From: Microbacterium sp. | GTDB lineage: Bacteria; Actinomycetota; Actinomycetes; Actinomycetales; Microbacteriaceae | Reading direction: 5' to 3' | Length of the DNA stretch: 64,000 bases | Assembly (NCBI GenBank): GCA_031177765.1 | Contig: JAPSKH010000003.1 | Location: 1-64,000 of the forward strand | Shown here: positions 49,915 through 56,507 of the stretch, one piece after another | Position numbering within the stretch: the stretch's first letter is position 1 | Layout of the letters: each line of letters starts with the position of its first letter | Made by a program: the position numbers and the translations under genes | The notes under the pieces: model-generated | The model's database searches: none | What the model saw: the letters and a program-made list of their open reading frames with translations, nothing else | What the model was told of the DNA's origin: nothing

Positions 49915-50565
49915 TCAAGGGCCCGCAGCAGCGGCATCCGCCGTCGTCGTGTGACGATCGCGCACGGCACCGATGACCGACACGGCGGCGTAAAGGAAAA
50001 GAGCACCGGCCGCGACGGCGACGACGACGGTGCGGTTGGAGCCGTTGAGGAGGGTGTTCACCCACCCGAGCAGCGGCAGGCTGTACCAGAGCTTGCCGCG
50101 GACCTGCACCTCGCGGACGGGCTCGGGGTCGACCGTGTCGTTGTTGTCGCCCTTCGTCACGAACGTGAGCTCGCCGTCGGCGTACGTCTTCGACATCACC
50201 CTGTGGCTGACGACCGCCGCTTCGCCCGATCGGATCTGATACGTGATCACGTCGCCGACGCGGATGTCGTCGACCGGTGTCGGCCGGACGACGACCAGTG
50301 TGCCCGGTGGCAGTCCCGGCTCCATCGACTGGGTCAGCACCGTCATCGCGCTGCCGCCCGTCAGAGCGGGCAGGCCGATCACGGCGACGGCGACACCGAG
50401 CAGCAGCACGAGGAGCGCCGCGCTCAGTGAGACCGCGAGGTAGTGCAGCAGGCTCTGACCCTCTTCGCGGCGGCGGATCTCGGCGCGGATGAGCCGGCGC
50501 GTTCCGGATGCCGCGCTGAGCGTGGGCACGGTGACGGTGGTCGTCATGGGCGTCGTGGTCGTCAT
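49915..50565 (-). CDS. Signal peptidase I, SipW/ER type
   Basis: A 216-residue membrane protease. Catalytic Ser in TQSMEPGLPPGTLVVVRP; His instead of Lys in VVSHRVMSK; Asp in VTKGDNND. This is the SipW/Sec11-type Ser-His-Asp arrangement rather than the usual bacterial Ser-Lys dyad. One helix lies near residue 50 and one near the C-terminus. ATG 50565 overlaps the upstream stop (TGATG). SipW-type peptidases process TasA-like proteins with special signal peptides, exactly the type encoded by the three genes before it. Confidence 0.9.
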   Translation of the reverse strand: MTTTTPMTTTVTVPTLSAASGTRRLIRAEIRRREEGQSLLHYLAVSLSAALLVLLLGVAVAVIGLPALTGGSAMTVLTQSMEPGLPPGTLVVVRPTPVDDIRVGDVITYQIRSGEAAVVSHRVMSKTYADGELTFVTKGDNNDTVDPEPVREVQVRGKLWYSLPLLGWVNTLLNGSNRTVVVAVAAGALFLYAAVSVIGAVRDRHTTTADAAAAGP

Positions 50566-51482
50566 CAGCAGTGGTAGTTCGGGGACAGCTGCAGAAGGTC
50601 CAGGAGTGAGGTCGATCGGATGACGCGGACGGTCGCGCTGGCCGGTGCGGTCGTCGCGCCTCCCGTCGTCTCCTTCGCCTCGATGGCGAGCCGGTAGGTG
50701 CCGTTCGAGCCGATCATGTGGCCGGAGAAGACGATCGACACGTTGGCGTTGGCGCTCGCCACCGTCGCGAACGTCGTGCCGGACGCGCTGTCGTACACGC
50801 GGTAGGACACAGGAGCGGTGTCGGCCCGGTTGGTGGGAGCGGTCCAGGTGAGCCGGACGGTGCTCGCGGACTCGGCTGAGCACGTCGGGGTTCCGGCGGC
50901 AGCCAGGCGGTACACCGACTGCGTCACCGCGGCGGCGGTCGCCGAGGTCGTCCAGCTCGTGCCCACGGCGCCGGTGACGCGGAAGGTCGCGGTGGCGCTC
51001 TGACCCTGCAACGACGCGTTCGACGCTCCCTCGACCTGAGTCGAGACGCACACCGTGACCGAAGCGCCGGCGGCGAGGGAGCGCGCCGCCGCAGGCAGCG
51101 CGGGCGCGGTGTTGGCGAGCGACGTGGTCACCGCGTCGGCCGGCGCCGTCGCACCGCACGCGCCCGTCCACAGCCGCAGCGTGGTCTTCTGCGCGAGCGC
51201 GGCGCTGCCGCCGACCTGATTCGCGAGCGCGTACGACAGGGGCGCGCCGCCGGTGTTGGTGATCGTCAACTGCCCGGAAGCCGCCGTCGACGCGGTGCCG
51301 GAGTAGCGGTAGGTGGTGCTGAGCGCGCCGGTCTGCGCCAGGGTGGTCGCGATGGTGGTGGAGGAAGCGGATGCCGACACCGAAGCGCTCGCGATCCACG
51401 CGGCGGACGCTCCGCCGGCGCCGCCGAGCACCGCGAGGGTGACCAGCGCGGCGACGGGGCCGAGGAGGCGGCGACGGGTCAT
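50565..51482 (-). CDS. Exported protein with SipW-type signal peptide and fibronectin III-like domain
   Basis: A 305-residue protein. The N-terminus TRRRLLGPVAALVTLAVLGGAGG followed by ASAAWIASASVSA is a SipW-dependent-type signal (Arg cluster, hydrophobic core, aromatic just after cleavage). The middle is a Ser/Thr/Ala-rich beta domain (LTITNTGGAPLSYAL). The C-terminal ~95 residues (VRLTWTAPTNRADTAPVSYRVYD) form a fibronectin III-like fold, ending in Cys. Probably a minor fibre subunit or anchor. ATGA overlap with the upstream gene. Confidence 0.8.
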   Translation of the reverse strand: MTRRRLLGPVAALVTLAVLGGAGGASAAWIASASVSASASSTTIATTLAQTGALSTTYRYSGTASTAASGQLTITNTGGAPLSYALANQVGGSAALAQKTTLRLWTGACGATAPADAVTTSLANTAPALPAAARSLAAGASVTVCVSTQVEGASNASLQGQSATATFRVTGAVGTSWTTSATAAAVTQSVYRLAAAGTPTCSAESASTVRLTWTAPTNRADTAPVSYRVYDSASGTTFATVASANANVSIVFSGHMIGSNGTYRLAIEAKETTGGATTAPASATVRVIRSTSLLDLLQLSPNYHC

Positions 51483-52078
51483 GAGCGGACCTGCGTTCCG
51501 GAGACGGTGATCGTGAGGGCGGATGCCGCCGCACCGGCGGCTGCGGCGGGCGCGGTCTGGGGCATCCCGATCCCGATGCAGAGGATGGTGGAGGCACCCG
51601 GGGCCAGCGTCAGCTGCAGGTCGGAACCGGCCGCGGCCCCCACGGGGGTGGTCACGGTCGGGGTGACGCGACCGGCGGTGCAATCGGCGCTCGAGACGGT
51701 CTTTCCGACCGACACCACGAGGGACGCGGTGAACGTGGTCGGCGTCGCGGGCCCCTTGACCGGATCGAGCGTGAGGGCGAGGGGCGCGGTGCCGGAGTTG
51801 GTCACGGTGGTGGACGCGTAGAGGGTGCGACCCGGATAGAGACCGGCGGCAGACAGGTTCAGGGCGCCGGCGGTGAGTCCGGCGGACCCGGCCCTGAGGG
51901 TCGTGGTGGCGGCGGCCGCGGGGGCGGCGACGGTCCAGACGGCGAAGGTCCCGCCGCCGGCCAGTACGCCCAGGACGATCGCGCCCGCCGTCCCGAGGGC
52001 ACCGAGGAGCAGACGCGCCGGCGCCGCGGCGCGACGCTGTGCGCGTCGGGCGGCGTGGCGACGGATGCGGCGGCTCAT
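51479..52078 (-). CDS. Exported protein with SipW-type signal peptide
   Basis: A 199-residue protein with a very basic N-terminus (SRRIRRHAARRAQRRAAA), hydrophobic core LLLGALGTAGAIVLGVLAGGG and TFAVWTVAAP after it, the SipW-class pattern. The mature part is Ala/Thr-rich with TTVTNSGTAPLALTLDPVKG, a beta-sandwich pattern shared with the next gene, and two Cys. Likely an exported accessory or minor subunit. Its stop overlaps the next start (ATGA). Confidence 0.75.
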   Translation of the reverse strand: MSRRIRRHAARRAQRRAAAPARLLLGALGTAGAIVLGVLAGGGTFAVWTVAAPAAAATTTLRAGSAGLTAGALNLSAAGLYPGRTLYASTTVTNSGTAPLALTLDPVKGPATPTTFTASLVVSVGKTVSSADCTAGRVTPTVTTPVGAAAGSDLQLTLAPGASTILCIGIGMPQTAPAAAAGAAASALTITVSGTQVRS

Positions 52079-52108
52079 TCTCGGTCCTCGTCGGGAATCG
52101 GACGGTGC

Positions 52109-52136
52109 GGGGCTCGCCTGCGGCGAGGCGAGCCCC
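52109..52136 (-). terminator. Hairpin inside the SipW operon, possible partial terminator
   Basis: GGGGCTCGCC (52109-52118) pairs perfectly with GGCGAGCCCC (52127-52136), eight-base loop, seven bases beyond the stop of the first gene and before the second. It could reduce read-through, making the first product the most abundant, or protect its mRNA 3' end. Confidence 0.6.
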
Positions 52137-52142
52137 GTTCGG

Positions 52143-52715
52143 TCACTTCGTGTTCTGCGTGAGGCTGACGGTCAGCGCGTCGAGCGTGACGGCGCCGTTC
52201 ATGGCGTTGTTGTTGCCGCCCGCGGTGTCGCCGTAGGGGAAGGTGATCGTCACGGTGACGGTGACGTTCTGGTTCACCACGCCGGCGCCCGGCGTGACGG
52301 TGAAGGTGGGCCCTGTGCCGGTGATGCCCGAGCCGGACGCGGTCAGCACGGCGGAGTCGGTCAGGTAGCTCGCCAGCGCCACGTCGGCGGGCTTGGTGTT
52401 GTCGGCCGGAGCGATCGACGAATCGGTCAGTGACAGCGTCGCGCTGAGGCTGTCGCCCTCGGCACCGACCTTCATCGTCTTCGTGTACGTGAGGACATCG
52501 CCGGGGGCGACGCGGTAGTCGCCGATCGTGATCGCCGTGCCGTTGGCCGTCCATGCGCCCGGGGTGTCCGAATCCTCGACGACCAGGTTGCCGGCGACGA
52601 TCGAGCCGCCCGCGACGGAGGCCGAGGAGTTCCAGGTGGCGAACGTGCCGGCGCCGCCGAGCAGCAGGATGACGCCGGCGGTGGTGGCGATGGACGCCTT
52701 GACGATCTTCTTCAT
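52143..52715 (-). CDS. TasA/RER_14450-like exported protein with alternate-type signal peptide
   Basis: A 190-residue protein. The N-terminus KKIVKASIATTAGVILLLGGAG followed by TFATWNSSA is the alternate (SipW-processed) signal; TxATW after the core is diagnostic. The mature domain is a beta-sandwich rich in Thr/Val/Gly with no Cys, resembling the alternate signal-mediated exported proteins (RER_14450 family) and TasA/CalY fibre proteins of Bacillus. The start has GGAAGGA seven bases upstream, the best ribosome site of the operon. Likely the major extracellular subunit; biofilm or fibre function is inferred. Confidence 0.85.
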   Translation of the reverse strand: MKKIVKASIATTAGVILLLGGAGTFATWNSSASVAGGSIVAGNLVVEDSDTPGAWTANGTAITIGDYRVAPGDVLTYTKTMKVGAEGDSLSATLSLTDSSIAPADNTKPADVALASYLTDSAVLTASGSGITGTGPTFTVTPGAGVVNQNVTVTVTITFPYGDTAGGNNNAMNGAVTLDALTVSLTQNTK

Positions 52716-54814: not shown

Positions 54815-56062
54815 TCAACGGTCGGTCAGGGCGTTCGCCTTCTCACGCAGCACCCGCTGCTGCGCCGCGTTCGCGGTCAGTCCCGCTGCGGTCAGGAGCT
54901 CCGCCCGGGCTTCCTCGATGCGACCGAGCTGCGCGAGCAGCTCGCCGCGGACGCTCGGCACCAGGTGCGATCCGCGCAGGGAACCGGCCTCCTCGAGCGC
55001 GTCGACGATGCGCAGTGCCTCGGTGGGGCCGGAGGCCATGGACACCGCGGCCGCCCGGTTGAGTTCGACGATCGGGTTCGGTGCGATACGGCCGAGCACC
55101 TCGTAGAGCAGCACGATGCGGTGCCAGTCCGTCTCGGCGACGCTGGGTGCGATCGCATGGCACTGCGCGATCGCGGCCTGCAGCGCGTACGGCCCGCGTC
55201 CGACGCGGCGTGCCGCGGCGATGGCATCCGCTTTCGCGAGGAGCCCGACAGCGCGCGCGATCTGGCCGCGATCCCAGCGGGAGCGGTCCTGGTCGGCGAG
55301 CAGGACGGGCGCCCCCGAGCGCGACTCGCGGGCGGCGAAGCGCGAACGCTGGAACTCCATGAGCGCCACCAGTGCAAGCGGCTCGGGCTCGCGTGGCAGC
55401 AGGCCGGCGATGATGCGCCCCAGCCGCAGCGCCTCGTCGGCGAGGTCAGGACGCACCCACCGGTCGCCGCCGGTGGCGGCATAGCCCTCGGTGAAGACCA
55501 GGTACACCACGCCGAGCACAGCCGACAGGCGCACCGTCCACTCCGACGGATCCGGCGTCTCGAACGGCACGCGCGCCGCCGCCAGCGCCTTCTTGGCCCG
55601 CGTGATGCGCGCCTGCACCGTCGGAACCGTGGTGAGCAGCATCCGCGCGATCTCCTCCGTCGACAGGCCCGCGACCACCCGGAGGGTGAGCGCCACCTGC
55701 GACTCGCGCGAGAGCGCGGGGTGGCATGCCGTGAAGATCAGACGCAGGACGTCGTCGTCGATCGGCTCCCACGCGTCGTCGGTCGCCTCATCGAGCGTGT
55801 GTGCGATGGCGGCATAGCGCTCGTCGAGCCGCTCGCGGCGCCGCCACGCGTCGATCACACGGCGCTTCGCGACCGCGGTGAGCCATGCGCCCGGGTTGAC
55901 CGGAACGCCCTCGCGCGGCCAGGATCCGAGGGCTTCGACGAGCGCCTCCTGCGCGACATCCTCGGCGAGGCCGAGGTCGCCGGTCATCTTGGCCACGGAT
56001 GCCACGATCCGCAGACCCTCGATGCGCCAGACGGCCTCGACCGTGCGCCGGGTGTCGTTCAT
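54815..56062 (-). CDS. ECF42-type RNA polymerase sigma factor with C-terminal DUF6596/TPR-like domain
   Basis: A 415-residue sigma factor. Region 2 is seen in LAEDVAQEALVEALGSWPREGVPVNPGAWLTAVAKRRVIDAWRR and region 4 in ESQVALTLRVVAGLSTEEIARMLLTTVPTVQARITRAKKAL. The long C-terminal half (about 185-415) is the helical DUF6596 domain of the ECF42 group (LRLGRIIAGLLPREPEPLALVALM, LLYEVLGRIAPNPIVELNRAAAV). This group has no anti-sigma factor; it is linked to YCII/DGPF proteins, and such a gene is directly upstream. Start ATG 56062 chosen over 56170, which overlaps the neighbour. Confidence 0.9.
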   Translation of the reverse strand: MNDTRRTVEAVWRIEGLRIVASVAKMTGDLGLAEDVAQEALVEALGSWPREGVPVNPGAWLTAVAKRRVIDAWRRRERLDERYAAIAHTLDEATDDAWEPIDDDVLRLIFTACHPALSRESQVALTLRVVAGLSTEEIARMLLTTVPTVQARITRAKKALAAARVPFETPDPSEWTVRLSAVLGVVYLVFTEGYAATGGDRWVRPDLADEALRLGRIIAGLLPREPEPLALVALMEFQRSRFAARESRSGAPVLLADQDRSRWDRGQIARAVGLLAKADAIAAARRVGRGPYALQAAIAQCHAIAPSVAETDWHRIVLLYEVLGRIAPNPIVELNRAAAVSMASGPTEALRIVDALEEAGSLRGSHLVPSVRGELLAQLGRIEEARAELLTAAGLTANAAQQRVLREKANALTDR

Positions 56063-56087
56063 CCTCGTGCGTGCTCCCGGTGGCGGC

Positions 56088-56507
56088 TCATTCGGTGCCG
56101 AGCTCGGCGCGCCACTCCTTCTCCTTCTGGATGTACTCGTTCTCGGAGAAGTCCGCGAAGTCCGCCTCATCGGTCACACGGCGCACCTCGAGCTTGCTGC
56201 CGGGGCCCAGCGGGCACCGCTTGGCCCACTCCAGGGCCTCCTCGGCGGTGGCGGTCTGGATGATCCAGAAGCCGTTGAACAGCTCGTGCACCTCGCCGTA
56301 GGGGCCGTCGCTGACGATCGGCGTCTCGCCGGAGAAGTCGACGACGTAGCCCGGCTCGGGCGCGAGTCCCTCGCCGGCGACCATCACGCCGGCCTTCATC
56401 AGGGACTCGTTGTAGGCGCCCATCGCATTGATGACGGCCTCGAAGTCCATGTTCTCGTAGTTGTCCACGGCCTCCTGCGTCGCCCGCATGATCAGCATGT
56501 GCTTCAT
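56088..56507 (-). CDS. YCII/DGPF domain protein, ECF42 partner
   Basis: A 139-residue protein of the YCII-related superfamily: KHMLIMRATQEAV opening, and VVDFSGETPIVSDGPYGEVHELFNGFWIIQTATAEEALEWAKRCP with the DGPF-like DGPY. These proteins occur next to ECF42 sigma factors and probably take part in signalling. Start ATG 56507 has GGGAG upstream, inside a duplicated leader segment. 25 bp before the sigma gene, same operon. Confidence 0.9.
   Translation of the reverse strand: MKHMLIMRATQEAVDNYENMDFEAVINAMGAYNESLMKAGVMVAGEGLAPEPGYVVDFSGETPIVSDGPYGEVHELFNGFWIIQTATAEEALEWAKRCPLGPGSKLEVRRVTDEADFADFSENEYIQKEKEWRAELGTE

Follow-up and report, generated by a model that had tools for sequence, protein, structure and literature searches.

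An operon with a SipW-type signal peptidase in Microbacterium probably encodes a TasA-class fibre

Introduction

The closest described relatives of the system reported here are the tapA-sipW-tasA system of Bacillus subtilis and the sipW-calY1-calY2 system of Bacillus cereus. In the fibres of TasA, the most conserved contact between subunits is a "proline box" made up of F29, P62 and Q232 (PMC10151520). TapA reportedly lacks conservation even within Bacillus (PMC10151520), and archaeal bundling pili have been described as TasA-related fibres (PMC9674648). Here we describe a four-gene operon in a 64,000-nucleotide stretch of DNA from Microbacterium sp. (contig JAPSKH010000003.1; hereafter the window), which encodes three exported proteins, P1, P2 and P3, and a signal peptidase of the endoplasmic reticulum (ER)/SipW type. 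We put at roughly 75% the probability that a TasA-class fibre of the surface or matrix is encoded here, because the operon's interface residues, profile-profile alignments, predicted folds, conservation as an operon and pattern of co-occurrence all support such a fibre. Our search of the open-access literature found no account of the system in Microbacteriaceae, in agreement with an initial annotation of this DNA that had called its role there undescribed; absence from that literature is no proof of absence.

Results

The initial annotation had proposed a SipW-type peptidase with three genes for exported proteins upstream of it. All four genes proved to be real and conserved, and they are arranged as follows.

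52143-52715, minus strand: P1, predicted major fibre subunit (190 amino acids; TIGR04089; predicted mature N-terminus T27-W28; W28/P71/Q187)
52108-52137, minus strand: stem-loop with a 12-bp GC stem between P1 and P2, beginning 6 nt past the P1 stop codon
51479-52078, minus strand: P2, minor TasA-like subunit (199 amino acids; W48/P82/Q196; invariant C133 and C167)
50565-51482, minus strand: P3, probable end subunit (305 amino acids; TasA-like N-domain with W29 and without Pro-Gly; FN3-like C-terminal part)
49915-50565, minus strand: SipW/ER-type signal peptidase I (216 amino acids; S80/H121/D140/D146)

P2 and P3 overlap by four bases (ATGA) and P3 and the peptidase gene by one (TGATG), as had been noted, but the overlap does not extend to P1 and P2, which are separated by 64 bases containing the 12-bp hairpin. 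The same four-gene order was found in five named Microbacterium genomes, with identities of 79-85% for P1, 66-73% for P2, 57-74% for P3 and 72-83% for SipW. Microbacterium sp. Leaf288, a cultivable relative, also has this operon.

We compared the conserved residues of the exported proteins with the proline box of TasA. The alignment of 46 P1 sequences has just ten invariant columns, and W28, P71 and Q187 are all among them; like these three, G72 is present in 46/46. In the hhalign alignment, W28 of P1 is positioned as F29 of TasA and P71 lies in the matching xPGD motif, while the correspondence of Q187 to Q232 was drawn from its position at the domain end and from a TQ motif. P2 retains P82, G83 and Q196 in 29/29 homologues and W48 in 20/29. 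Counterparts of the proline box are thus found in both P1 and P2, with Trp replacing Phe. P3 carries the donor Trp (W29) in 20/20 sequences and TQ in 15/20 but Pro-Gly in the corresponding region in 0/20.

Direct comparison with TasA was made with a single sequence, whose mature part matched 8aur and 5of1 letter for letter; TasA homologues for a family profile were sought on plasmids, and none was found. Aligned with the TasA precursor by hhalign, P1 gave an E value of 6e-7, signal peptide included. When the mature parts were compared, TasA scored 28.1 against P1 (best of 60 shuffles, 21.6) and 25.8 against P2 (best of 60 shuffles, 21.3); profile alignment of the mature parts of P3 and TasA found nothing, nor did an hmmsearch of PDB sequences with the P1 profile.

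Structure prediction of P1 against TasA had been named beforehand as a check. AlphaFold2 single-chain models of P1 and P2 reached mean pLDDT values of 82 and 80.5, respectively, and were compared by Foldseek with 350,542 PDB chains. The TasA fibre 8aur ranked first for both models. For P2, the match had an E value of 2.9e-4, followed by archaeal bundling pili (7ueg; E = 7.6e-4) and then FimF. For P1, the first-ranked match was weak (E = 0.019; TM-score, 0.35; rmsd, 10.8 Å, full length). Full-length TM-scores to the TasA fibre were low for both models (0.35-0.39), perhaps in part because the signal peptide and donor strand lie free in a monomer model.

The three exported proteins also proved to be related to one another. 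Profile-profile comparison connected the mature parts of P1 and P2 (E = 5.6e-8 over 136 columns) and the mature part of P2 with the N-domain of P3 (E = 3e-15 over 141 columns). P1 and P3 showed no significant match when compared directly and, since the same holds for P3 and TasA, P3 is tied to P1 and TasA only via P2. P1 is a full-length member of NCBIfam TIGR04089 (exp_by_SipW_III), matched at positions 1-179 of 179 with 132.1 bits (cut-off, 60), and it also exceeded the cut-off of TIGR04088, the SipW-dependent signal model (22.7 versus 19 bits). This agrees with the earlier description of an RER_14450-like major protein, a name by which the TIGR04089 family also goes. P2 and P3 of the window matched no curated family. 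Among 29 P2 homologues, matches were found to TIGR04089 (4/29), TIGR04088 (3/29), the TasA equivalog NF046066 (3/29; best E = 4e-5) and BsaA (1/29).

In all three proteins the aromatic residue of the signal-peptide end is a Trp, the invariant W28 of P1 and W29 of P3 and the less constant W48 of P2. The assignment to SipW-class signal peptides therefore holds for this aromatic residue but not for the supposed Arg-rich start in the case of P1, which begins MKK. A search of the genome itself with the P2 profile found only P1, P2 and P3, and one with TIGR04088 found only P1, so the operon seems to hold all SipW substrates of the genome, as far as a 73% complete assembly can show.

P2 has two invariant Cys, C133 and C167, and so fits the Cys-containing minor protein of the initial annotation; Cys is not exclusive to it, however, as P3 has three that are invariant within its alignment (C109, C145 and the C-terminal C305). 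P3 had also been described as an FN3-bearing protein and a possible tip or anchor. In the window its FN3 match is sub-threshold (E = 0.011), and a place at the fibre end is plausible. The C-terminal part of P3 is variable, with a ricin-type lectin domain in 7/20 homologues and FN3 in 3/20. Pfam CDtoxinA matches on two P3 homologues were taken to reflect a common beta-trefoil fold and not toxins. As read from the alignment, P3 homologues are often far longer than the window's, for example at loci L077, L088, L089, L099, L104, L105 and L107.

The peptidase is, as judged from its sequence, of the ER/SipW type, because it scored 103.3 bits against TIGR02228 (cut-off, 51.85), can be aligned to human SEC11A/SEC11C and has Ser80, His121, Asp140 and Asp146 invariant across 19 homologues; the Ser-His-Asp catalytic set reported earlier is thereby borne out. 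Against the Bacillus SipW equivalog NF046067 it scored 76.8 bits, under the 190-bit cut-off.

We then determined the distribution of the system. TIGR04089 was matched above its cut-off in 14/59 Microbacterium genomes and 83/200 Microbacteriaceae; phylum-wide, it was matched in 2/297 genomes, both Microbacteriaceae. A close SipW homologue (E < 1e-24) was present in 14/59 Microbacterium genomes, all of them among the 15 with P1; such nesting would arise by chance with a probability of about 1e-12 under independence of the genomes, an assumption that does not hold. One of the 15 (G043) has a P1 marginally below the TIGR04089 cut-off; the fifteenth (G016), which has no close SipW homologue, carries P1 on a 3-kb contig. 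Of the window and 57 other loci, two of the latter distant and with weak matches, 48 yielded a SipW-type gene, and the usual order was P1-P2-P3-(P4)-SipW; several of the loci lacking a SipW-type gene represent gaps of the simple gene caller. In one genome, duplicated P1-P2-P3 sets surround a single SipW gene (L090, 3074-11309). In several genera the operon stands beside apparent glycogen-metabolism genes (flanks of L077, L081, L082, L104 and L107), judged by eye from GlgE-like or glycogen-phosphorylase-like termini.

The additional gene P4 lies between P3 and SipW in many Microbacteriaceae operons of other genera. It was located at the following positions, and at other loci.

L077, 8685-9305: P4
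L082, 2301-3074: P4
L088, 3317-4060: P4
L089, 3055-3993: P4
L107, 8888-9817: P4

P4 aligns to P2 from Pro-Gly onwards (E = 3.5e-11) and has an ordinary signal peptide without a SipW-type aromatic N-terminus. In 8/13 P4 proteins an LxxTG motif (LAxTG in 6) is followed by a hydrophobic segment and a tail rich in Arg, an arrangement that suggests a sortase-fixed wall anchor. The window operon lacks P4, and a search for it in the same genome, made on the 73% complete assembly with no positive control, was empty.

The hairpin after P1 recurs as well. Under a single scoring rule, a stem with a score of at least 11 follows the P1 stop codon in 30/55 P1 genes, compared with 37/449 other gene ends in those loci, 1/26 ends for P2, 2/55 for P3, 1/48 for SipW and 0.2% of shuffled P1 ends; the loci are related to one another, so these counts overstate independence. 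The GC stems span 11-18 bp, have unrelated sequences in different species and, for the most part, no T-run. Examples besides the window are found at L059, L061, L066, L074, L077, L082, L089, L107 and others. Their recurrence suggests an excess of P1: a hairpin that stabilises the transcript or partly terminates it could raise P1 above P2-P3-SipW, which would fit a major subunit.

The neighbouring genes have no obvious relation to the operon. Downstream lies an aldo/keto reductase gene on the plus strand, and upstream are genes for a proline-rich membrane protein, a DUF6596-containing extracytoplasmic function (ECF) sigma factor and a YCII-like protein, the latter two at 54815-56170 and 56088-56507. 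The ECF sigma factor/YCII-like pair is also found upstream of the operon in the close relative L061. In the operon region, an Rfam search found no riboswitch or other family, its one snoRNA match being far under threshold. A promoter of the sigma-70 type was not seen either.

Discussion

We propose that P1, P2 and P3 leave the cell by the Sec route and that the co-encoded SipW would cut each of them just past a conserved Ala, predicted to be Ala26 in P1. Cleavage of P1 would expose a short strand starting Thr27-Trp28-Asn29, and this strand of one subunit could complete the beta-sandwich of the next, allowing polymerisation by donor-strand exchange. The Trp would enter a pocket made up of the xPGD Pro and the C-terminal Gln, like F29, P62 and Q232 in TasA. 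P1 would make up most of the fibre, and P2 would be a minor, probably disulfide-bonded subunit, each able to donate and to accept. Since P3 keeps the donor Trp and has no Pro-Gly, it is probably a donor-only end subunit: it would donate but seemingly could not accept via the pocket, and so would occupy one fibre end, carrying a binding domain that may be FN3-like in the window and is a ricin-type lectin in several relatives. The hairpin after the P1 gene would shift expression towards P1.

Which end P3 occupies is the point on which two versions of the fibre differ. In the simplest reading of the operons with P4, the shaft consists of P1 and P2, with P3 as the end that only donates and P4 as the wall-attached end that only accepts. 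Extended to the family, this would make the Microbacteriaceae systems multi-part donor-strand fibres in which P1 and P2 donate and accept, a donor-only P3 forms the tip and carries an adhesin of the lectin or FN3 type, an acceptor-only P4 (in other genera) is fixed to the wall through LAxTG and the hairpin sets the stoichiometry; the whole would be an analogue, on the TasA fold, of the adhesin, shaft and anchor of a chaperone-usher pilus, with the window holding a version without P4. We advance this full scheme tentatively and consider it rather doubtful. The other version keeps the fibre but places P3 at the cell surface, as a TapA-like starter whose FN3 or lectin part would bind the wall of the producer itself. 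TapA is a membrane-associated protein with a complete fold that acts as a donor through its N-terminus (PMC10151520); P3 likewise keeps its donor Trp and lacks Pro-Gly in all 20 sequences, and a separate anchor gene was not found at the window locus. The P4 of other genera points the opposite way: it has retained Pro-Gly, is without an aromatic N-terminus of the SipW type and in many cases ends in an LAxTG-like tail, so that the acceptor end would be wall-bound and P3 would form the tip. On this evidence we give a starter role for P3 slightly less than even odds.

It is also conceivable, though improbable, that P1-P3 are SipW-processed secreted or surface beta-sandwich monomers that owe their TasA-like features to common ancestry and the signal peptide. 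The weak structural match of P1 would fit this explanation, as would the fact that the best sequence match to TasA takes in the signal peptide. Yet beyond the signal peptide the invariant positions correspond to residues through which neighbouring subunits touch in TasA fibres, and the Pro and the Gln are widely separated along the chain. An assembly also fits the presence, within a single operon, of three related proteins that differ in the subset of interface residues they keep. We consider it very unlikely that P1-P3 form an enzyme set, whether of camelysin-type metalloproteases or of another kind, as they have no significant enzyme family match and their invariant columns contain no His/Glu/Asp metal motif.

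Several observations weigh against a TasA-class fibre. No fibre has been seen. Besides the weak P1 fold match, P1-P3 of the window did not match the TasA model NF046066 or the camelysin (M73) models at E < 1, and no TapA homologue was recognised among them, P1-P3 matching no NCBIfam TapA model (the TapA sequence itself was not compared). The window locus has no wall anchor. Finally, most Microbacterium genomes lack the operon, which is therefore accessory. The initial annotation had called the locus a complete actinobacterial counterpart of the TapA-SipW-TasA system; a SipW-dependent TasA-like system is supported, but "complete" is too strong, because no TapA homologue was recognised, the substrates are mutually related, the gene order differs and an anchor-like gene is missing.

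Catalogues list the SipW-dependent proteins of actinobacteria as "alternate-type signal peptide" proteins and assign them no function, and invariant TasA contact residues give such proteins a function that is concrete and testable. If the fibre we propose exists, donor-strand fibres of the TasA class extend to a large environmental and plant-associated family of actinobacteria, and the uneven spread of interface residues among related proteins predicts the place of each in the fibre.

Among known systems, the operon resembles B. subtilis tapA-sipW-tasA and B. cereus sipW-calY1-calY2 in its dedicated ER-type signal peptidase, the aromatic residue near the new N-terminus, the xPGD and C-terminal TQ motifs and the TasA fibre as best structural match. 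Unlike them, it has Trp for Phe at the pocket residue, invariant Cys in P2 and P3, the order P1-P2-P3-sipW, an FN3/lectin-bearing P3 and a hairpin after P1. The archaeal bundling pili are the second-best PDB fold match of P2 but are archaeal and without a sequence-level match. BsaA-type proteins (TIGR04090) are SipW-dependent biofilm matrix proteins that one P2 homologue matches weakly and the window proteins do not. TIGR04089, annotated as "alternate-type signal peptide domain-containing protein", includes P1 over its full length, but the family model covers neither P2, P3 nor the operon and has no assigned function. The interest of the operon lies in its invariant interface, in the way related proteins share out the two halves of that interface, and in the hairpin that recurs after P1.
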